Of a stretch of 64,000 nt of DNA, positions 1 through 9,588 are shown piece by piece. This DNA is from Robiginitalea marina (GTDB lineage: Bacteria > Bacteroidota > Bacteroidia > Flavobacteriales > Flavobacteriaceae). Position 1 is the stretch's first letter; each line of letters begins with the position of its first letter. The translations under genes and the position numbers were made by a program. The notes below the pieces were generated by a model. The model was not told the DNA's origin. It did not search any database and saw only the letters and a list, made by a program, of their open reading frames with translations. The DNA lies in NCBI RefSeq assembly GCF_024006985.1, contig NZ_JAMXIB010000003.1, positions 1 to 64,000 on the forward strand, read 5' to 3'.

Positions 1-1041
1 CTGCTTGCCGAAAATAAGATCAACCGATACCTGCTGTATGCCTTCGGGGAGATCGTGCTGGTGGTGATCGGGATTTTGATTGCCCTGCAGGTCAACAACT
101 GGAATGAGGAACGAAAGAAGCAACAAGAAATCTCCAAATTGCTCCACGATATTGAACAGGACCTCCTGCTGAACTACGAATTGGCGGGCTTTGCGCTGGA
201 CTTTTACAAGGTGCAGGATTCCATTGCCAGGCGCATTGCCCATAAGACGCTGAGCAAAGCCGATTACCAAAACAATTCCCGCCTGAGCTATTACATCAGC
301 AATTGGGAATACTACCTGCCCGTGGAAAAAAACATCGACCAATTCGTGGAATCTGAAAAACTTGTCCCCCCTGAGTATAAGCCGGTGGTTGATGCGCTGA
401 AAAGGCTTCAGAATTTGAGCGCCGTGCTCGACGACACCTGGGCCAACCTGAAGGGGAATATCGATGAGAATACCCAACGGCTCACCAGCTTTAACTGGTT
501 TGTGAAAAACGATTCCGTTTCCACGGAACTACGCATAAACTATTTCCTGAACGATGAGGGTTATGAAACCCTGGCGCTGCGGTACTGGGTCCAAACCCAG
601 AATTATTACGATAAAATCTCCCGCTACAGGGCGCAAGCCATAGGTGCCCTGGCCACCATCAAAGCTACGAGGGACCGGTATAGCGCCCGCCAAATCCATG
701 GGTTGTTCCAAAAAAGTGGGATGCCCGCTTTTAAGCGGTATCCGTGCAGCGTTGTCCGTTCGGAGTTGCCGTCCTTAAAAACGATCAGGGCCAGCGAGCT
801 TTATGGCAACCTCACCCCGGACACCCTGCACATTGAGCTAACCAACAACCGGGGACAGGCTATTTCGGAATTTACCCTGGCCCCCTCCACCTTCATGAGC
901 ATCCCGGGGTCGGAATATTTCGGCCTCGACGGGGACAAGAATACCCTTGCCCGGGTAACGGACCCTGCCGGAAATTGCGTCGGCATCTATGGCGCTTTTG
1001 AAAACGGGTATCTTTTGATCCCTGAAAGCAATACCCCATGA
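1..1041 (+). CDS. DUF6090 family membrane protein (5' partial)
   Basis: The frame is open from base 1, so the gene begins upstream of the window. The visible start reads LLAENKINRYLLYAFGE, followed by a hydrophobic helix (VLVVIGILIALQV) and NNWNEE, the signature head of DUF6090 proteins of Flavobacteriia. A helical, probably coiled-coil stretch follows. The carboxyl end, about 80 residues beginning near TIRASELYGNLTPDT, looks beta-rich and is absent from the neighbouring paralogues, so this copy has an extended tail. The stop overlaps the start of the next paralogue (ATGA at 1038-1041), implying coupled translation. Function of the family is unknown. A membrane anchor with a non-cytoplasmic or cytoplasmic helical domain is all the sequence shows. 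Confidence 0.85.
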   Translation: MLAENKINRYLLYAFGEIVLVVIGILIALQVNNWNEERKKQQEISKLLHDIEQDLLLNYELAGFALDFYKVQDSIARRIAHKTLSKADYQNNSRLSYYISNWEYYLPVEKNIDQFVESEKLVPPEYKPVVDALKRLQNLSAVLDDTWANLKGNIDENTQRLTSFNWFVKNDSVSTELRINYFLNDEGYETLALRYWVQTQNYYDKISRYRAQAIGALATIKATRDRYSARQIHGLFQKSGMPAFKRYPCSVVRSELPSLKTIRASELYGNLTPDTLHIELTNNRGQAISEFTLAPSTFMSIPGSEYFGLDGDKNTLARVTDPAGNCVGIYGAFENGYLLIPESNTP

Positions 1042-1799
1042 AGTTCTTCCGCACCCTGCGCCAACGCCTGCTCACTGAAAACCGGGTTACCCGCTACCTG
1101 CTTTATGCCCTGGGGGAGATCTTACTGGTAGTTATCGGGATCTTGCTGGCCCTTCAGATTGACACCTGGAACGAAGCCAAAAAAGAGCAGCAGGCCTCCC
1201 GCGATTTCATTTCGCGCTTACTGAAGGAAGTGCGGAAAAATATCGGGTACGCCGGGGCGGAAATAGGGGTGGAGGAACGGCAGACAGCAGCTGCCAAAGC
1301 CATCCTGGGCCAGTTTCACGAGCCCGATGGTGCCGGATCGGGACGAATCCTGGATAGCCTGGTCTACATCATCCTATCAAACAACACCCTTGAAATCGCG
1401 TCGGGGACCCTGAACGAGGGGTTCAATACCGGTGCCATCGCCCTGATCAGGTCCGATTCCCTGAGGTCGGCCCTGTACAACCTTCCCTCCCGGATTGAGG
1501 AAATCAGGAAACAGGAAGAGATTGACCGCGAGGACATCAACGGGCATTTTACCAACTTCCTGTACTATAATTACAACTACCGGAATATGGACAATCACTT
1601 CTCCCCCTATAAAGGGCAAATTGGGGAGACGAAATTCCCTTCCTATCACAACCGGAGCCTGCTGGAATCGCCTGCCTTTGAAAACATGGTCGACAACCGG
1701 TTCTGGAATTGCCAGGAGCAATTGCGCCAGTTGCTTACATTCAACGAAGCGCTCACACGCATTGACGCCATGATCTCCGCCGTGCTTTCAGAGAGGTGA
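1038..1799 (+). CDS. DUF6090 family membrane protein
   Basis: This 253-residue protein starts MKFFRTLRQRLLTENRVTRY and carries one predicted membrane helix (LLVVIGILLALQI) at about residues 30-46, then DTWNEAKKEQQ and a long, mostly helical domain. Head and topology match the other DUF6090 copies at 1, 3178, 5810 and 6781, while the domain after residue 60 is only loosely similar. The ATG overlaps the stop of the preceding copy by four bases, so the two are almost certainly co-transcribed. No catalytic motif is visible. The gene ends just before a palindromic repeat (1831-1953) that could act as its transcription terminator. Confidence 0.85.
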   Translation: MKFFRTLRQRLLTENRVTRYLLYALGEILLVVIGILLALQIDTWNEAKKEQQASRDFISRLLKEVRKNIGYAGAEIGVEERQTAAAKAILGQFHEPDGAGSGRILDSLVYIILSNNTLEIASGTLNEGFNTGAIALIRSDSLRSALYNLPSRIEEIRKQEEIDREDINGHFTNFLYYNYNYRNMDNHFSPYKGQIGETKFPSYHNRSLLESPAFENMVDNRFWNCQEQLRQLLTFNEALTRIDAMISAVLSER

Positions 1800-1830
1800 T
1801 TTCAGGTGTGCCAATGATGATTTTGTGTTT

Positions 1831-1953
1831 CTGTCATTTCGAAGGAGTGTAGCGACTGAGAAATCTCACCTAACATATCCTGCACACCATTAATGAGATT
1901 TCTCACCCCCCTGAAGTGAGCTTCGCTCTACTTCAGGGGGTTCGAAATGACAG
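1831..1953. repeat. Palindromic dispersed element, copy 1
   Basis: The element is bounded by a perfect 13-bp inverted repeat (CTGTCATTTCGAA at 1831-1843, TTCGAAATGACAG at 1941-1953). Inside lie GAGAAATCTCAC and GAGATTTCTCAC, and a strong hairpin at 1907-1940 whose arms are CCCCCTGAAGT and ACTTCAGGGGG. Copies or fragments lie at 2986-3106, 6621-6712 and 7551-7618. No coding capacity; it resembles a MITE or large REP-like element. Confidence 0.8.
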
Positions 1954-2008
1954 TGCACACTAATGATCTGTTTTCAACGTACCAACCACTTGGAAGTTCC
2001 AAATAACC

Positions 2009-2899
2009 TTAAAGCGAAGTCGCCTTAAACGTATCCCCCTGCCGGAGGTCGCCGGTATCGTAGCCTTTTTTGAACCAGCGCATGCGCTGGGCGGAGGTGC
2101 CGTGGGTAAAGGAATCGGGGATTACCCGGCCCATCTGTTCGCGTTGCAGGCGGTCGTCGCCGATGGCATTGGCCGCATTGAGGGCTTCCTCCAGGTCGCC
2201 GGGTTCCAGGAGCCCGAAGAGTACCTGGGAATGGTGGGCCCACACCCCCGCGAGGAAATCGGCCTGCAGCTCGAGGCGCACCGAATAGTCATTGAATTCC
2301 TTCTGGGGGAGCTGCCCGCGCAGGCGGTCGATCTGGTCGGTAATGCCCATCAGGTTCTGGATGTGGTGCCCCACTTCGTGGGCAATCACATAAGCCTGGG
2401 CAAAATCGCCGGGGGCGTTCAGCTTGCGCTCCATCTCCTCGAAAAAACTGAGGTCGAGGTATAATTTCTCGTCCCCAGGGCAGTAAAACGGCCCGGTGGC
2501 GCTGGAGGCCCGGCCGCAGGCCGAAGCCACCGTGCCGCTGTACAGCACCAGGGTGGGTTCCCGGTAGTCGGGCAAAAGCTTGTTCCAGACATCCTCCGTA
2601 TTGGCCAGCACGGTAGCGCTAAAGGTGGCCAGCTCCCGGTCCTCCGCAGTAGGCTCATAAGGGGCAGCCGCCCCGGCAGGGCCGCCACCGCCCATTATAA
2701 AGCTCAAGGGGTTGGTGCCTGTGATAAAGGCGAATACCAGCAGCAGGCCCACGATGATCAGCCCGGTTTTGGAAAACAAGAGCCTGATGAGGGGGCCCAG
2801 GAGCATCGGGTTGATCCCCCGCCCGCCGCCCATGGACGGGCCCCGCTGGCCCCTGCGGTCTTCGACGTTTGAACTCTGCCTGCTGCCTCTCCATTTCAT
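2009..2899 (-). CDS. Neutral zinc metallopeptidase, YpfJ/KPN_02809 family
   Basis: The protein has the family's hallmark start (MKWRGSRQSSNVEDRRG), a glycine-rich stretch, one membrane helix (LIIVGLLLVFAFITG) and a periplasmic zinc-peptidase domain with HEVGHH (in AYVIAHEVGHHIQ) as the metal-binding HExxH. FYCPGDEKLYLDLSFF and the conserved downstream ELQADFLAGVW, which supplies further ligands, are present. About 296 residues, the usual family length. A longer frame reaches an ATG at 2938, but family starts begin at MKWRG, so 2899 is chosen. It is flanked on both sides by copies of the palindromic element. Substrate unknown; a membrane-anchored cell-envelope peptidase is likely. Confidence 0.9.
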   Translation of the reverse strand: MKWRGSRQSSNVEDRRGQRGPSMGGGRGINPMLLGPLIRLLFSKTGLIIVGLLLVFAFITGTNPLSFIMGGGGPAGAAAPYEPTAEDRELATFSATVLANTEDVWNKLLPDYREPTLVLYSGTVASACGRASSATGPFYCPGDEKLYLDLSFFEEMERKLNAPGDFAQAYVIAHEVGHHIQNLMGITDQIDRLRGQLPQKEFNDYSVRLELQADFLAGVWAHHSQVLFGLLEPGDLEEALNAANAIGDDRLQREQMGRVIPDSFTHGTSAQRMRWFKKGYDTGDLRQGDTFKATSL

Positions 2900-2985
2900 G
2901 GCCTGGTGGTTTTTGGAATTGCGTATTCCAAAATACAAGTTTTCGTTCGGAATTTAGAGGGGCTCGACGCTTAAATTACGGGTTG

Positions 2986-3106
2986 CTGTCATTTCGAAGG
3001 AGTGCAGTGACTGAGAAACCTCACCAAGCGACTTCTGCACACCATTAATGAGATTTCTCACCCCTGAAGTGAGCTTTGCTCTACTTCAGGGGGTTCGAAA
3101 TGACAG
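2986..3106. repeat. Palindromic dispersed element, copy 2
   Basis: Same 13-bp terminal inverted repeat as copy 1 (2986-2998 and 3094-3106), the same inner TGCACACCATTAATGAGATTTCTC block and the same hairpin (CCCCTGAAGT ... ACTTCAGGGG). It lies in the 278-bp gap between the YpfJ-type peptidase and the next DUF6090 gene. Identity to copy 1 is high across the full length. Confidence 0.8.
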
Positions 3107-3144
3107 CACCCTCCACGGCATACTGCCAACATATCCCAAGAACC

Positions 3145-3180
3145 CGTATCTTGTAGCAACCTAAAGACCCAGCCACCTTG
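3145..3180 (+). promoter_or_regulatory. Conserved 36-nt leader before a TTG start, copy 1
   Basis: These 36 bases, from CGTATCTTGTAGC to the TTG start codon, recur at 6748-6783 with 34 of 36 identical, although flanking sequence differs. TATCTTG resembles the -7 TAnnTTTG element of Bacteroidetes with one base missing. It is probably a shared promoter and leader of two DUF6090 genes. Confidence 0.45.
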
Positions 3181-3978
3181 TTCCGCTTCTTCCGCACCCT
3201 GCGCCAGCGCCTTGTAACCGAAAACAAATACAGCAAGTACCTGCTTTACGCCTTTGGGGAAATTATGCTTGTGGTCATCGGTATTGTGATCGCCCTGCAG
3301 ATTGACAATTGGAATGAAGAACGAAAACTAAGGATAGAAGAACAAATTCTGCTGAAGCAGTTAAAGGACGAATACATCGCCAACCTGGAGCAGCTCGACG
3401 GCAAAATAGCCATCCGAAATCTGCTCATAAAATCTTCAAAGGAATTACTGACCTGTTTCGACAATCCGGATGCAGCAAACAGAGACAGCGTAATTTCCAG
3501 ATTGGGGAACCTAAGCCTGACGGTCACCTATGACCCTATAGACAATGATCTTGTCGCTTCTGGAAAAATCAATATGATCCAAAACGAGAAACTGAAAAAA
3601 CTGCTGACCAAATGGTCGACGGACGTGATTCAGGTGCAGGAAGTTGAGGTCATATATCTCAACGCCCACAACAATGTGAACTTCCCCGCACTCTCCAAAT
3701 TTGGTCTGGGGCGGGCGATGAACAAGGCGCTTTACGATAAGGTTAACAGCGTTGAAGGTTTCTCCAATTTTTTACTCAACCGGGATGAATTGTTCCCGTA
3801 CGACTTCAAAAATTCAAGGTTAGAGCCTGACCTGCAGGCCATCCTCAACAATCCGGAACTGGAAGGCATGGTTTCCAATTCCATTTTTATCAATGAATTA
3901 ATCAACTCGGAATCAGCCACCCTCCGGAAACAAATCCTGGATATCCTTGATTTATTGCCGGCGTCGGAACCCAATTAG
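3178..3978 (+). CDS. DUF6090 family membrane protein (TTG start)
   Basis: A 266-residue paralogue whose head, FRFFRTLRQRLVTENKYSKY, aligns without gaps to its siblings. One membrane helix (IMLVVIGIVIALQI) is followed by DNWNEERKLRIEEQILL and a helical domain. The only start that keeps the conserved head is TTG at 3178; the same TTG start is used by the copy at 6781, behind the same 36-nt leader. It is followed at 3987 by a second, broken DUF6090 head that now opens the sulfatase frame. No known function. Confidence 0.85.
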   Translation: MFRFFRTLRQRLVTENKYSKYLLYAFGEIMLVVIGIVIALQIDNWNEERKLRIEEQILLKQLKDEYIANLEQLDGKIAIRNLLIKSSKELLTCFDNPDAANRDSVISRLGNLSLTVTYDPIDNDLVASGKINMIQNEKLKKLLTKWSTDVIQVQEVEVIYLNAHNNVNFPALSKFGLGRAMNKALYDKVNSVEGFSNFLLNRDELFPYDFKNSRLEPDLQAILNNPELEGMVSNSIFINELINSESATLRKQILDILDLLPASEPN

Positions 3979-3986
3979 ACCTGTGC

Positions 3987-4030
3987 ATGCTTCGCTTCTT
4001 CCGCAACTTACGCCCGCGAGGCCAGGCTTC
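3987..4030 (+). pseudogene. Remnant of a DUF6090 5' end
   Basis: The bases from ATG at 3987 encode MLRFFRNLRPRG and share CGCTTCTTCCGCAACTTACG with the intact DUF6090 gene at 5810. Similarity stops after about 30 nt. The frame runs on, in phase, into the downstream sulfatase, so a gene finder may take this ATG as the sulfatase start. Confidence 0.6.
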
Positions 4031-4064
4031 GGGAAATACCCATTTTAACCCTAACCCCAGGAAA

Positions 4065-5741
4065 ATGACCGAAAACGCACCCGTACTAAACCCCCCTTTA
4101 CTGAAATCGGGGAGTCGACCCAATTTAGTTGTGCTGTTGATCCTGTTGCTCAGTCTGGGGTCCTGTGCCGAAAAGCCGGAAAAACCCATCCCGAAGCGGC
4201 CCCCGAATATTTTGCTGATCGTGGCCGACGACCTGGGGTACACAGACCTGGGGTCCTATGGGGGCGATATCGAAACGCCCAACCTCGATACCCTGGCGGC
4301 GGCCGGGGTTCGGTTCAGCCGGTTCCATACCTCCCCCCTCTGTGCGCCCACAAGGGCCATGTTGCTCTCGGGAAACGACAACCATATCGCAGGCATGGGG
4401 GTGCAGGGACGGATCCCGGGCCAATTCGGGTACGAAGGGCACCTCACGGACCGCATCGTGCCGGTGCCCAGGCTGCTGCAAGACGGGGGCTACCACACCT
4501 TCATGGCCGGCAAATGGCACCTGGGCATGGAGCCTGAGAATAACCCTTTGCAAAAAGGCTTCGTACGCTCTTTTGTGAACCTTCGCGGGGCCGGGAACCA
4601 TTACGATGATCAGGGGATTTTTGAAGAGACCCCCAGGTCGCTGTATACCGAAGACGGAAAGCCGGCCCCCTGGCCGCAAGGGGCTTACAGCACGGATTTT
4701 TACACCGATAAACTGATCGCCTATATGGATGAGGCCCTTGCGCAGAACAAGCCGTTCTTCGGTTTTGCCGCCTATACCTCCCCGCACTGGCCGCTTCAGG
4801 TAGATGAAAAATACTGGAAGAAATATGAAGGCCGTTACGATGCAGGGTATGAAACGTTGAAAGCGCGGCGGCTGGAAAGCCTGAAGGCGGCCGGGATGGT
4901 CCCTGAAAATGCCGTCCTTCCCCCAAACCACGAACGGGTCATCCCCTGGGATTCCCTCACCGCCGACCAGCAAAAGATGGAAGCCCGGAAAATGGAATTA
5001 TATGCCGGCATGGTAGACAACCTCGACGTCAATGTTGGCAGGCTCATCCGGCACCTGAAGGAGACCGGGCAGTTCGAAAACACCCTCATCGTCTTTATGT
5101 CCGACAACGGGGCGGCAGCCGAGGACTTTTACCACCACCCCCATTACGGGCCGTTTATCCAAAAACACTTTACGGAAGACTATGAAGCCATGGGAAAGGC
5201 CAATTCCTTTATCTCCTATGGGCCGCAATGGGCCGAAGCCGGATCCTCCCCGTTCCGTTACTTCAAGGAGTTCCCCACGGAAGGGGGTACCGTGGCGCCC
5301 ATGATTGTGGCAGGCCCCGGCATACAGGGCAGGAACGCCATTCACGACGAGTTCCTGACCCTTATGGACCTGGCCCCCACCTTCTATGATTTGGCCGGGG
5401 TAACCTATCCGGAGCAATTTGAAGGAAAAGAAGTGTTTCCCCTGAGGGGAACTTCCATCCTCCCATTTCTTTCTGGAAAGGCAGACGCCATCCACCCCGA
5501 CGATTACGTGTTTGGCCTGGAGTTGCACAATTACGGGATGATCCGCAAAGGGGACTGGAAGCTCACCAATACCTCTGACCCCTTTAATGAAGGGGCGTTT
5601 GCCCTGTACAACCTCGCCGACGACCTGGCGGAAACCAATGACCTGAAAGCCACCGAACCCCAAAAATATGCCGAACTAATGGAGGCCTGGAAGGCGTTTA
5701 CGGCGGAGGTGCAGGCGCAAATCCCGCTTCCCGGGGAATGA
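4065..5741 (+). CDS. Arylsulfatase, S1 family lipoprotein
   Basis: The protein is a formylglycine-dependent sulfatase: PPNILLIVADDLGYTDLGSY supplies the first metal-binding aspartates, CAPTR (about residue 93) is the CxPxR motif whose cysteine is converted to formylglycine, and GKWHLG is the conserved lysine/histidine motif. The pattern CAPTRAMLLSGNDNHIAGMG resembles the Pseudomonas aeruginosa arylsulfatase branch. The start at 4065 (MTENAPVLN) puts a lipoprotein signal with lipobox LSLGSC (cysteine near 34) at the amino end. An in-frame ATG at 3987 would add 26 residues that are a DUF6090 head remnant. The likely role is desulfation of marine polysaccharides or smaller sulfate esters at the cell surface. 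No anaerobic sulfatase-maturase lies nearby. Confidence 0.9.
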   Translation: MTENAPVLNPPLLKSGSRPNLVVLLILLLSLGSCAEKPEKPIPKRPPNILLIVADDLGYTDLGSYGGDIETPNLDTLAAAGVRFSRFHTSPLCAPTRAMLLSGNDNHIAGMGVQGRIPGQFGYEGHLTDRIVPVPRLLQDGGYHTFMAGKWHLGMEPENNPLQKGFVRSFVNLRGAGNHYDDQGIFEETPRSLYTEDGKPAPWPQGAYSTDFYTDKLIAYMDEALAQNKPFFGFAAYTSPHWPLQVDEKYWKKYEGRYDAGYETLKARRLESLKAAGMVPENAVLPPNHERVIPWDSLTADQQKMEARKMELYAGMVDNLDVNVGRLIRHLKETGQFENTLIVFMSDNGAAAEDFYHHPHYGPFIQKHFTEDYEAMGKANSFISYGPQWAEAGSSPFRYFKEFPTEGGTVAPMIVAGPGIQGRNAIHDEFLTLMDLAPTFYDLAGVTYPEQFEGKEVFPLRGTSILPFLSGKADAIHPDDYVFGLELHNYGMIRKGDWKLTNTSDPFNEGAFALYNLADDLAETNDLKATEPQKYAELMEAWKAFTAEVQAQIPLPGE

Positions 5742-5775
5742 TTTTCCGGCGACTTTCCCGGCAAGTTGCCGCGGT

Positions 5776-5783
5776 TATTTTTG
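5776..5783 (+). promoter_or_regulatory. -7 promoter element TATTTTTG
   Basis: A perfect match to the Bacteroidetes -7 element TAnnTTTG, 26 bp before the DUF6090 ATG at 5810. No clear -33 TTG at 17-23 bp upstream is visible. Transcription would begin near 5790. Confidence 0.45.
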
Positions 5784-5809
5784 TACTTTGAACCCGCAAT
5801 ACCCAACCC

Positions 5810-6586
5810 ATGCTCCGCTTCTTCCGCAACTTACGGCAGCGCCTGCTAACCGAAAATAAGTTCAGCATGTACCTGCTGTATGCCGTGGGGGAGATCCTGC
5901 TGGTGGTGGTCGGGATTCTGATTGCTTTACAGGTGGATAGCTGGCATGAAACGCGATCGGAAAACAGGGAAGAAACCGCCATCCTGAAATCTTTGAAAAC
6001 AGATTTTCTCCAAAGTAAAATCAACGTAGACCATACCCTGGAAGACCAAACCAGGGTGGTGCGGTATTGCGCCCGCTTGTTCGAAGTCCTCAGCGAGGGG
6101 GATACAACGGTGCCGCCCGATTCCCTGGGGGAATTTATCTATCGGGGTGCCCTGTCGTACTGGCGGATGGAGCCCGCCAACGGGACCTACGATGCGCTCA
6201 TAGGCTCGGGGCGCGTTTCTCTGATTAAAAATCAGACCCTCAGCCGGTTACTGGCGGAATATTCGGCAGAACTGAAATACGGTTTCGAAGACGAGCTGCA
6301 AAGTACCGACCTCACCACCCTGTTGGTGGAAAAAAGCAGCGGTTTTGCCCCGGTTCTCGGAAAATCCGTGTTTGCCACGCATTTCCTGACAACGCGCAGG
6401 CAGTTCACGGATAAAGAAATACGGGAGGCCGTTGAGGCGTTGCGGTCCGACAACTCCTTTTTAGGCGTGCTGGCCATGAAGTATGCCCTTGAAGACAACC
6501 GGCTGAAATATCAGCAAAAGGTCTCAAAATATATCGCCGACATCCTGGTGCTGCTCGAGGAGGAACTCAGGGAAAAGGGATTGTAG
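5810..6586 (+). CDS. DUF6090 family membrane protein
   Basis: A 258-residue paralogue with head MLRFFRNLRQRLLTENKFSM, membrane helix LLVVVGILIALQV and DSWHETRSENREE, followed by a helical domain. At DNA level, about 72 nt of the head (from CGCCTGCTAACCGAAAATAA) match the gene at 6781 with a single mismatch, while the remainder has diverged widely. This contrast points to gene conversion or strong constraint on the head. It lies 68 bp after the sulfatase behind a TATTTTTG box, so it probably has its own promoter. Confidence 0.85.
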   Translation: MLRFFRNLRQRLLTENKFSMYLLYAVGEILLVVVGILIALQVDSWHETRSENREETAILKSLKTDFLQSKINVDHTLEDQTRVVRYCARLFEVLSEGDTTVPPDSLGEFIYRGALSYWRMEPANGTYDALIGSGRVSLIKNQTLSRLLAEYSAELKYGFEDELQSTDLTTLLVEKSSGFAPVLGKSVFATHFLTTRRQFTDKEIREAVEALRSDNSFLGVLAMKYALEDNRLKYQQKVSKYIADILVLLEEELREKGL

Positions 6587-6620
6587 CAGGGACGGGTTTA
6601 TGATTGGCTAATGCCATCCG

Positions 6621-6712
6621 TGTCATTTCGAAGGACCCCGATAGCTATCGGGGGAAGGGACGACTGAGAAACCTCACCAAAGATGTGCAGGGGCCTCTTG
6701 GGGAGAAATGAC
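6621..6712. repeat. Degenerate palindromic element, copy 3, with inserted palindrome
   Basis: The left end TGTCATTTCGAAGGA and the inner GACTGAGAAACCTCACCAA match copies 1 and 2. The right end is degraded (AAATGAC at 6706-6712). An 18-bp perfect palindrome, CCCCGATAGCTATCGGGG, sits at 6636-6653 and is absent from the other copies. Confidence 0.6.
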
Positions 6713-6747
6713 CGTTTCATTGAACTGTCAACTTCCCCCAAATATCG

Positions 6748-6783
6748 CGTATCTTGTAGCGACCTAAAGACCCAACCACCTTG
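6748..6783 (+). promoter_or_regulatory. Conserved 36-nt leader before a TTG start, copy 2
   Basis: 34 of 36 bases are identical to 3145-3180, again ending at the TTG start of a DUF6090 gene. Conservation outside coding sequence supports a shared promoter or translational leader. Confidence 0.45.
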
Positions 6784-7494
6784 CTCCGCTTCTTCCGAAC
6801 CCTGCGTCAACGCCTGCTAACCGAAAATAAGTTCAGCAAGTACCTGCTGTATGCCGTGGGGGAGATCCTGCTGGTGGTAATTGGGATCTTGATTGCGTTG
6901 CAAATCAACAATTGGAATGAAAATCGAAATAACAGATTCGCGGAAAAACGATACGTGAATGATTTGATTGAGGATTTGAAGAATGACTCAATCATGTTAA
7001 ACGATATTTATGGCTTCCTGGAATCCAAATCAAGGTCCAAGGAGAAAATAGCTCCCATTTTGCGCGGGGAGCTGGCCGCTGTTGATTCAATGGCCTATCA
7101 CTTCAACATGCAATGGGCAGTGCAGGACAGGTTTACCCCTACGACCACAACCATAGAGGAATTAAAAAATGACGGAAAGCTCAATATTATAAGGGATATT
7201 GGTTTGAGGCGAAAAATAGTGTCCCTTTACAACCTCTATTCCAAGGAGGAATTTGCCGAAGATATGTTCAACCAGCAAAATTTTAAATTGATGGGTTTAG
7301 CCAGCCAGCATTTCGGGAACCTGCTGGAACCAAAACCCGGGGAACTCTCGGAAGCCCTCCAAAATAAACCCTTTGTGAACGGGATCATTGCCAATTTCAC
7401 ATTTGCCAGAAAAGATGCCATTGACCAGCTTCAAAAACAGTGCGCCCTGCTGATCAGAGAATTAGAAGTTTACAAGGCCCGGATCAACGGGTAA
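6781..7494 (+). CDS. DUF6090 family membrane protein (TTG start)
   Basis: A 237-residue paralogue with the canonical head LRFFRTLRQRLLTENKFSKY, membrane helix ILLVVIGILIALQI and NNWNENRNNRFAEKRYV, then a helical domain of unknown function. The start codon is TTG. Upstream is the 36-nt leader shared with the gene at 3178. The gene is followed by half of a palindromic element (7551-7618). It is the last of the five tandem paralogues. Confidence 0.85.
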   Translation: MLRFFRTLRQRLLTENKFSKYLLYAVGEILLVVIGILIALQINNWNENRNNRFAEKRYVNDLIEDLKNDSIMLNDIYGFLESKSRSKEKIAPILRGELAAVDSMAYHFNMQWAVQDRFTPTTTTIEELKNDGKLNIIRDIGLRRKIVSLYNLYSKEEFAEDMFNQQNFKLMGLASQHFGNLLEPKPGELSEALQNKPFVNGIIANFTFARKDAIDQLQKQCALLIRELEVYKARING

Positions 7495-7550
7495 CACACG
7501 GGTGTCCGGGGCAGGGAAACACCCAGTGGCAGTCCCAAACAGCTGTTTTG

Positions 7551-7618
7551 CACATCGTTGATGAGATTTCTCACCCCTGAAGTAGAGCGAAGCTCACTTC
7601 AGGGGGTTCGAAATGGCA
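7551..7618. repeat. Palindromic element, right-half copy 4
   Basis: Only the right half is present: TGATGAGATTTCTCACCCC, the hairpin with arms CCCCTGAAGT/ACTTCAGGGG, and GGTTCGAAATGGCA. The hairpin loop (AGAGCGAAGCTC) is inverted relative to copies 1 and 2, as if the hairpin had flipped. Confidence 0.6.
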
Positions 7619-7634
7619 TAGTCCAAGCCCCGCA

Positions 7635-8894
7635 TCAGCCACCAAACCGATCGGCCCGCAATAAATCAATGGGCAGGTCCGTGGCCCCTTCCATGGCCAG
7701 GTCGGCCAGGACTTCGCCTATGGCGCTGGCGAACTTAAAGCCGTGGCCGCTGAACCCGGCGGCGACGACCACATCTTTGCCGTAGCCGGGCAGGGGGTCC
7801 ACCACAAAGTGGCCGTCGGGGGTGTTCGTATAGAGACAGGTTTTCATCGCCAGGGTTTGGGTATAGCCCTGCGGGAGGAACTGCTTCAGGAAGTTTACCA
7901 GTGCTTCTTCCTCGGCCTTGCGGGGGCTGCGGTCTGCCGCGGTGGGGTCGGCCACGGCCTCCCCCGGGTAGTGCTGGGCCAGTTTCAGCCCCAGCGGGCC
8001 GCCAAACGCCCCGGCAGGCAAAATGGGGAAACCGTAAAAGTCGCGGCCCTCGTGCTCCAGCAGCCAGCAGGGAAAGGTGCCCAGGGCAAAGCGGTCCCAG
8101 GCGGCGGGTTGCACCCAGGCCAGCGCCTGGCGCGTAACGTGCAGTTGGGGCGCCAGGGCGGGGAGCAGTTCCCGGGCCCAGGCGCCAGCGGTGACCACCA
8201 GTTTGCCGGCCCGATAGGTCTCCCGGGGGGTCCGCACCACCACGCCACCGGTGGTATGCTCCCACCCCAGGACCGGTTCTCCGGAGCGGATAACGGCCCC
8301 GCGCAGCAGGGCCTGTTCGGCCATCAACAGGATGCTGCGCTCAGGGGTGAGCAGGCCGGCCTCCGGTTCCTCCAGCCGCTGGTAGTCTTCGGGGAGGGCA
8401 AATTGCGGGTATTTTTCCCGGCAGGCTTCCGGGCTGAGCTCGTTCAGGGGGATGTTATACGTTTCGGCTGATTCCCGCACCGTCTGCAGGAAGGCGCTCC
8501 CAGGGGGCCCGAAATAGGTGAGCCCCGTTTCAAAATAGACCTGCGCCCCCGTTTCCGATTCCAGGGTTTTCCAGTTTTCGTAGGCCCGTTCCAGCAGGGG
8601 CACATAGCCGGTAGCTTCGCCGTAGGCCTTGCGGATGATGCGGCTTTGCCCGCCGTGCGAGCCCAGCTCGTGGGGGATGTCGTACTGCTCCAGCCCCAGC
8701 ACCCGGTAGCCGCGCCTGGCCAGGTGGTAACAGGCCGAGGCCCCCATGCTGCCGACGCCAATTACGATCACATCGAAGGAGGTGCTCGTTGGGGCCTTTT
8801 CCATGTTGCGGTGCACCCGGGCGTACAGCTCGGGCACTGTGAGGCCTGCCGTTACGGTGGCCGAGGTTTTATAGAGGAATTCCCTGCGTTTCAT
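7635..8894 (-). CDS. FAD-dependent sarcosine oxidase / N-methyl-tryptophan oxidase family, Tat signal
   Basis: The 419-residue protein begins MKRREFLYKTSATVTAG, a twin-arginine signal, and continues with FDVIVIGVGSMGASACYHLA, the FAD-binding GxGxxG fold of the DAO family, then HGGQSRIIRKAYGE, typical of monomeric sarcosine oxidase and SolA. MKTCLYTNTPDGHF near residue 360 carries the cysteine that binds FAD covalently in those enzymes. The expected reaction is oxidative demethylation of an N-methylated amino acid, giving formaldehyde and hydrogen peroxide. The Tat signal, unusual for this family, implies folding with flavin in the cytoplasm and export. No partner gene lies beside it. Substrate is not predictable. 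Confidence 0.88.
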   Translation of the reverse strand: MKRREFLYKTSATVTAGLTVPELYARVHRNMEKAPTSTSFDVIVIGVGSMGASACYHLARRGYRVLGLEQYDIPHELGSHGGQSRIIRKAYGEATGYVPLLERAYENWKTLESETGAQVYFETGLTYFGPPGSAFLQTVRESAETYNIPLNELSPEACREKYPQFALPEDYQRLEEPEAGLLTPERSILLMAEQALLRGAVIRSGEPVLGWEHTTGGVVVRTPRETYRAGKLVVTAGAWARELLPALAPQLHVTRQALAWVQPAAWDRFALGTFPCWLLEHEGRDFYGFPILPAGAFGGPLGLKLAQHYPGEAVADPTAADRSPRKAEEEALVNFLKQFLPQGYTQTLAMKTCLYTNTPDGHFVVDPLPGYGKDVVVAAGFSGHGFKFASAIGEVLADLAMEGATDLPIDLLRADRFGG

Positions 8895-9124
8895 GACCGG
8901 TTCTGGCCCCTGCCTTTTTGCCCGCCCGCCGGGCCTCAGTGGGGCGGGGTGCAGGGTTACCCTTAAAGATAGCGAAATTATAACCTGCTTCAGCGCCGAT
9001 GTCGCTCGCGGACGGGCATGTCGGGTTTCTTTATTCGATATAAAGCCTTTTGTTCCGCGGGTATTTTATGGCGTATTTTAGTCTTAGCTCCTTTGTTTGC
9101 CCGGGGTTAGCCAGGAGTAGGCTT

Positions 9125-9418
9125 CTAAATCCTTCTCCCTAAATCCCGAGACGCATGATGTACCATGAGTATGTGTATGTGGTGCTGATTCACTATTCGA
9201 TAAATTATGCGATAATTTCCTTCAACCAGTTCCCTAATATTGGGGTCTCCAATTTCCTCGACTACCTTTCCAAGTGAAGGTTGCTTTTTTAGGATTTGTG
9301 TACGGGAAAATATGCGCTCTATTTGAAATTTGGCATATCTGGCCGAATCGGGGGAAATATATTCAAAAATTTCCCTGAGATCCTGCCTGGCTGAATCCAG
9401 CCAACTTATTCGAACCAT
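9125..9418 (-). CDS. ParE/RelE-family toxin
   Basis: A 97-residue protein starting MVRISWLDSARQDLREIFEY, with the ParE-type core (RIIYRIVNQHHIHILMVHH) and a basic end (RDLGRRI). Size and motifs fit ParE toxins, which inhibit gyrase; RelE-like ribonuclease activity is the alternative. Its start overlaps the end of the upstream antitoxin gene by 13 bases, the usual antitoxin-first order. The conserved arginine and tyrosine cluster (YRIIYR) is intact, so the toxin looks functional. Confidence 0.85.
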   Translation of the reverse strand: MVRISWLDSARQDLREIFEYISPDSARYAKFQIERIFSRTQILKKQPSLGKVVEEIGDPNIRELVEGNYRIIYRIVNQHHIHILMVHHASRDLGRRI

Positions 9419-9588
9419 TTTTGAAGATCCTCTTTTAGTTCGTCCTCACTGATAGCTTCGCCACTTTGAGATTGCTGTATCCTTTTTTCAAGCTTGTCAA
9501 TAAAGATCAGGCGCTCAATCAGCTCGTCCATGGAGAACGTATCCGGGAACTTCTCGATGTGTTCCTTCAATTTTTCCTTTGTAATCAT
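9406..9588 (-). CDS. Antitoxin partner of the ParE-like toxin
   Basis: A 60-residue acidic, helical protein (MITKEKLKEHIEKFPDTFSM ... EDELKEDLQKWFE) directly before the toxin and overlapping it by 13 bp. It resembles short antitoxins found beside ParE toxins in Bacteroidetes; no helix-turn-helix or ribbon-helix-helix is obvious. The carboxyl half likely wraps the toxin. Assignment rests on position, size and charge. Confidence 0.75.
   Translation of the reverse strand: MITKEKLKEHIEKFPDTFSMDELIERLIFIDKLEKRIQQSQSGEAISEDELKEDLQKWFE

Follow-up and report, generated by a model that had tools for sequence, protein, structure and literature searches.

DUF6090 genes consist of two halves that apparently evolve separately: the head evolves in concert, and the tail forms a specificity domain that is stable and apparently mobile. 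The first ~47 codons, together with the leader where both genes have one, convert with their siblings, most visibly among near neighbors, and conversion is limited to the head because the flanking sequences are not homologous. The tails have diverged from one another within a single family, and purifying selection acts on them in close relatives. DUF6090 genes are gained and lost one at a time, and related tails occupy unshared loci and are able to follow another head start. The evidence argues strongly for gene conversion confined to the heads over mobile tails under purifying selection, the mobility itself being the step that we infer. We give a probability of about 0.75 to the whole explanation, in which head conversion and single-gene turnover are combined with probable tail transfer and with a putative docking head that carries a specificity bundle.

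The window, the 64,000-nucleotide stretch analyzed here, is the start of a contig of Robiginitalea marina (G000:C33:1-64000). Its DUF6090 region contains the following features:

1..1041, + strand: DUF6090 gene 1, truncated at the contig edge; its head begins at codon 12 and is followed by the bundle and a C-terminal extension
1038..1799, + strand: DUF6090 gene 2, ATG start; overlaps the end of gene 1
2009..2938, - strand: neutral zinc metallopeptidase (PF04228), between DUF6090 genes
3135..3326, + strand: leader and head block of gene 3, 81% identical to 6738-6929
3178..3978, + strand: DUF6090 gene 3, TTG start; AlphaFold2 model md374c04cd35c, pLDDT 93.0
3987..4019, + strand: 11-codon head relic with which the sulfatase frame 3987-5741 begins
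5810..6586, + strand: DUF6090 gene 4
5840..5907, + strand: 68-nt head stretch (nt 31-98 of the gene 4 CDS), differing from gene 5 at one base
6738..6929, + strand: leader and head block of gene 5, counterpart of 3135-3326
6781..7494, + strand: DUF6090 gene 5, TTG start; AlphaFold2 model m65dbe5d38f01, pLDDT 93.7
6811..6878, + strand: 68-nt head stretch (nt 31-98 of the gene 5 CDS), differing from gene 4 at one base

All five frames reach the Pfam DUF6090 (PF19578) cutoff of 23.5 bits (33.6, 23.5, 28.5, 35.9, and 46.2), with a match that rests on the last part of the head and the first part of the tail; no Rfam match was found in window positions 1 to 9000. The initial annotation had described these genes as paralogues with alike heads and dissimilar tails, and this holds for 10/10 pairs, with identities of 72 to 85% (amino acids) and 70 to 84% (nucleotides) in the heads versus 18 to 27% and 37 to 42% in the tails. 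Across R. marina, 435 pairs have a mean amino acid identity of 64% in heads and 24% in tails. About 72 nt of the heads of genes 5810 and 6781 had been reported to differ at one base; the single mismatch is real, at CDS nt 59, and the longest run of near identity covers 68 nt (CDS nt 31 to 98). The divergence placed after residue 60 is also real, with its boundary at ~codon 48, and the diverged tails still belong to one family. Likeness between genes 3178 and 6781 starts ~43 nt upstream of the TTG. The sixth head fragment, noted where the sulfatase frame begins, is indeed present as an 11-residue relic at 3987, with 29/33 nt the same as in gene 5810; the sulfatase domain begins at residue 73 of this frame, and the sulfatase orthologues found by search have 59% and 55% identity.

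The motif TGTCATTTCGAA is found at window positions 1832-1843, 1941-1952, 2987-2998, 3094-3105, 6621-6632, and 7607-7618. All six copies in the 64-kb window (≤1 mismatch; 0.21 expected) fall in the DUF6090 region, and they are partly paired as inverted repeats ~110 nt apart; the motif may be an array-linked, REP- or MITE-like element. Downstream, window positions 9125-9588 hold a 97-aa frame and an overlapping 60-aa frame before it, which we take to resemble a ParE-type toxin and its antitoxin. C-terminal sequence beyond the bundle is present in L031 (C9:23853, 450 aa), L043 (C7:40205, 348 aa), and window gene 1-1041 (>346 aa), and one of these extended members has an internal repeat.

A profile search of the R. 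marina genome returned 36 matches at E≤1, and head criteria gave 30 full-length DUF6090 genes; heads were set aside as partial if their HMM E was ≥1e-6, if they began beyond position 3 or fell short of model position 40, or if their frame had <140 aa. Window gene 1, clipped by the contig start and thus retaining just 36 head codons, fails these criteria and is absent from the 435 R. marina pairs and from the comparisons of 106 genes given below. The congeners G001 to G009 have 30, 8, 9, 42, 52, 48, 6, 7, and 12 matches (E≤0.001, except G005 and G006 at E≤0.1). Elsewhere in the family, two genera have 38 and 28 matches, and most have 0 to 4. In the phylum sample, 19/118 genomes have DUF6090 matches, several with dozens, and the genomes rich in copies come from several families; one genome has 40 genes within the 57 kb examined. 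The largest set, 93 preliminary candidates of which 26 were scored, is in one 4.1-Mb contig of G174, a member of the same family. Several R. marina contigs end in or near DUF6090 heads (C33 start, C44 end, C9 end, and C15), as if the repeated heads had broken the assembly and split one larger array. No paper naming "DUF6090" or "PF19578" and no description of the family were found in the literature searched.

Conversion leaves a statistical trace among neighboring genes. For 29 pairs ≤1.5 kb apart, drawn from 106 genes of seven congeneric genomes (G005 and G006 partly sampled, with 36 and 23 genes) with heads permuted within genomes, nucleotide identity of neighbors is 0.745 in head codons 2 to 24 versus 0.608 ± 0.020 permuted (0/5000), and 0.755 versus 0.706 in codons 25 to 47 (0/5000). 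The excess stops at ~codon 48; tail identity is 0.232 in neighbors versus 0.238 in distant pairs, showing no excess. Fourfold-degenerate sites of the heads follow the same pattern (0.55 to 0.57 in neighbors versus 0.38 to 0.40 in distant pairs), and the neighbor effect is repeated in two other genera, G033 (24 pairs, 38/5000) and the single-contig genome G034 (8 pairs, 1/5000). Individual tracts begin at the start codon or common leader and reach nt 113 to 146, and the sequence outside is unrelated: the tract in L156 covers nt 1 to 113 with 5 mismatches and unrelated flanks, and that in L160 covers -4 to 146 with 6 mismatches. A rare insertion of ~27 to 30 nt inside the head is common to one neighbor pair. 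A Sawyer-type runs test inside heads gave mixed results and did not pick genes 5810/6781. In L031, upstream of C9:19780, a second head start relic (leader plus ~9 codons) stands directly before an intact head, and this doubled start appears to be a recombination scar.

Conversion can be seen directly in G083 and G095, close Balneolaceae metagenome-assembled genomes (MAGs) with syntenic DUF6090 arrays that supply the decisive case. Seven of the nine array genes in G083 have a near-identical tail in G095. In these seven orthologues the heads differ at 36/987 sites and the tails at 31/4254 (odds ratio 5.2, P=1.3e-10); in the 150-nt segments upstream there are 74 differences in 1048 sites, very unevenly spread. 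One pair, L211 (-, 4668) and L212 (+, 7492), has 21 differences in CDS nt 4 to 123 versus 1/150 upstream and 6/588 in the tail; this block is a conversion tract inside the head. One gene is opposite, with 13 tail differences and no head differences. The segment shared among paralogues outdiverges its flanks at synonymous sites in three genome pairs: head and tail divergences are 0.122 versus 0.024 for G083/G095 (P=5e-8), with 0.259 versus 0.106 and 0.320 versus 0.148 in the two further pairs, G083/G156 and G095/G156; head and tail divergences are equal for G095-G111 and G111-G156 (1 and 2 gene pairs). A search for the donors of two converted heads found no near-exact copy in five genomes; outside the own gene the best matches were 87% (87 nt) and 91% (70 nt), and most were 80 to 85%. 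Head differences match bases found in siblings more often than by chance at all sites in the first set (31/36 versus 24.1, P=0.0025) and in a second (56/59 versus 39.4, 0/20000); a third set (14/16 versus 12.4) and synonymous sites alone (57/62 versus 54.1, P=0.09) are not significant.

How do the tails evolve? Profile searches that were started from four tails of the window and iterated recovered 391 to 402 of 424 tails, indicating that the tails are one old family. Tail dN/dS is 0 to 0.35 in 15/17 comparisons of close relatives, the 15 being those where it is defined. Diversifying selection on the tails is thereby rejected at short time scale, and the idea of tails diversifying now was not supported; between orthologues, the head changes more readily than the tail. 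Tail matches of 50% in either other genome were found for 8/30 genes of G000, 8/49 of G005, and 10/43 of G006 (the fuller sets for the latter two), versus 0, 0, and 2 inside the own genome; with no such pair among the 30 and 49 genes of G000 and G005, the source of the genes is not recent whole-gene duplication. For 22 congener tail pairs with 49 to 85% identity, drawn from the same fuller sets, 19 have no common neighbor within 6 kb, some loci being clipped by contig ends, and in 14/22 head codons 2 to 24 are less identical than the tail (taken position by position with indels ignored, which affects L039 and spoils one of the 14). The top pair has 85% tail identity and a different head start, with DNA alignable only from codon 17; core RNase R has 74% identity between the same two genomes. 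Across 13 tail-orthologue pairs (48 to 84% amino acid identity), head codons 2 to 24 have identities of 0.559 (amino acids) and 0.630 (nucleotides) versus 0.557 and 0.588 in unrelated genes; codons 25 to 47 are partly linked to the tail. At the locus marked in three congeners by orthologues of the window zinc metallopeptidase, a DUF6090 gene is absent in G001 and single in both G006 and G004, and the latter two genes are alike only over ~residues 4 to 66, with unalike tails. The initial annotation had proposed gene conversion acting on the head, and the neighbor permutation test, head-only replacement in syntenic orthologues, and the differing tails behind the head at this locus, which holds no DUF6090 gene in a third species, all bear it out. 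Neither equal head and tail identity nor an unvarying array in relatives was found.

The common membrane anchor proposed earlier is present in the AlphaFold2 models of genes 3 and 5 (84 and 58 sequences), each of which shows an anchor and a helical bundle. In both, a short helix at the N terminus is followed by a single helix that takes in the membrane span (residue 18 to ~95) and then by long helices packed as a bundle; both proteins stop at the bundle, and Pfam gives no output domain. The product is predicted to be an N-in, C-out single-pass membrane protein in which a basic amphipathic helix (~2-14) precedes a strongly conserved membrane helix (~25-45) that would run into a periplasmic helical bundle of ~200 residues. 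The other force proposed for the head, selection, is evident as amino acid constraint, which extends across genera. Among 240 nonredundant heads, R9, Y21, Y24, G35, I36, and A39 are invariant; G27 and E28 are as well, but E28 was fixed by the selection filter, which allowed only G/A/S at position 27; the same filter qualifies the weak helical periodicity of conservation (P=0.048). We take G35-A39 to fit the GxxxA helix-packing pattern. This fit and the invariant residues point to a common docking surface in the membrane, and the head would then be a common membrane docking module. Sequence searches gave no credible solved relative (best E 0.34), and Foldseek gave no match at E≤0.001 in PDB or BFVD. 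VIA Z scores reached 13.0, mostly for designed bundles; the best natural folds, including PilJ, PcaY, Tar, OspC, and BBK32, score ~8 to 10, which may reflect a mere common helical arrangement. The Tar and PcaY domains score 8.2 to 9.7 (root mean square deviation [rmsd] 3.3 to 4.5 over 124 to 145 residues), below the helical level of ~13.

An invertible shufflon would have inverted copies and its own invertase; most DUF6090 arrays are same-strand. In a scan of 75 of 195 near neighbors, chosen mainly as operon-like or short, no constant operon partner was found among the 25 commonest of 72 Pfam families, DUF4440 being the commonest at 5/75, and none of these 25 was a recurrent toxin or recombinase. 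A 154-aa protein with a lipoprotein-like start adjoins DUF6090 genes at L032:2874-3335, L146:6737-7198, and L172:10106-10570, with 56 to 58% identity between species. A recombinase search of R. marina (PF00589) returned seven integrase matches, none beside a DUF6090 array and one (C22:136445-136921) ~1.6 kb from a single DUF6090 gene. A defense or phage origin was tried by profile and rejected for six members, which had no credible PADLOC or PHROGs match.

Could the pattern arise without recombination between heads? Duplication in tandem, with strict constraint on the head and fast divergence of the tails, would account for the amino acid constraint across genera and the homology of nearly all tails. 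Neighbor heads are alike at fourfold sites and their tails are not, however; the tails have dN/dS of 0 to 0.35, G000 and G005 are without recent full-length duplicates, and head-only replacement between G083 and G095 orthologues contradicts it, making this reading highly improbable. An assembly or consensus artefact of a repeated ~140-nt segment might be suspected behind the Balneolaceae head differences, since G083 and G095 are both MAGs, but a wrong join would exchange flanks rather than an inner block with near-identical flanks, and the neighbor effect recurs in single-contig G034; we regard it as very unlikely.

Recombination might instead act mainly by tail replacement or unequal crossing-over at heads, head-only conversion being minor. 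The 19/22 related-tail pairs without common neighbors, the 85% pair with its different head start, single-gene gain and loss, and relic heads all speak for this, whereas the G083/G095 tract retains both flanks, which crossing-over would not; we find it doubtful as the main process, though with an appreciable chance. A rival of another kind concerns function: each tail would neutralize one foreign toxin or phage, the genes being orphan immunity or phage-exclusion factors. The large species-specific repertoire, single-gene turnover, and arrays suit such a role; low tail dN/dS does not, nor do the neighbor scan, the one integrase match in seven near a DUF6090 gene, and the PADLOC and PHROGs results, and we consider it unlikely.

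We prefer head-bounded conversion over probably mobile tails. Under this explanation, tails would move horizontally; recombination in heads would also swap heads and tails, delete or add units, and leave relics like that at 3987. The head may be kept uniform because it would dock, within the membrane, with fellow family members or with a partner they have in common, and the bundle would bear the individual specificity. A further proposal, possible but speculative, is that DUF6090 is a constant/variable repertoire: through conversion, dozens of co-resident proteins would go on sharing a single, exchangeable docking helix within the membrane, and a horizontally acquired periplasmic bundle could join the same oligomer or partner once its head had been overwritten to the local type. 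Head-bounded tracts make half-gene concerted evolution measurable, and whole-gene DUF6090 trees mix two histories. The tracts also point to the membrane helix as what these proteins have functionally in common, which gives work on the family a lead that can be tested.

Several known systems combine conserved and variable parts. PE/PPE, polymorphic-toxin, and Borrelia 5'-conserved families have a conserved N-terminal segment, a variable remainder, and recombination; unlike these, DUF6090 has no secretion-system, toxin, or repeat signature that we found. Like the four-helix-bundle periplasmic sensor domains of Tar, NarQ, and PcaY, it has a membrane-continuous helical bundle (Z 8.2 to 9.7, below the level that would exceed a common helical arrangement), but it lacks their second membrane helix and cytoplasmic output domain. 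Orphan immunity arrays include the recombinase-associated rAID arrays, with nonsynonymous change at the effector interface (PMC12247911), and the Vibrio T6SS arrays (PMC5361080). DUF6090 arrays resemble both in consisting of variable, gained-and-lost genes, but unlike rAID they have almost no integrase nearby and a low dN/dS. In terminal reassortment of secreted effectors, an N-terminal module is reused with different C-terminal parts (PMC5675462, citing Stavrinides 2006). The DUF6090 N-terminal module is also reused before differing C-terminal parts; unlike those modules it is a membrane anchor that is converted in place as well, and its tails are one family, no joining to nonhomologous C-terminal domains having been encountered and few members carrying extra C-terminal sequence. 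Finally, bacterial paralogues such as tuf are kept in concerted evolution by gene conversion and are closer to each other than to orthologues, at synonymous sites too; in the cases considered, this involves whole genes, mostly in complexes (PMC6053082). DUF6090 differs in that conversion reaches the first ~47 codons only, in up to dozens of copies, while the remaining ~200 codons stay divergent.
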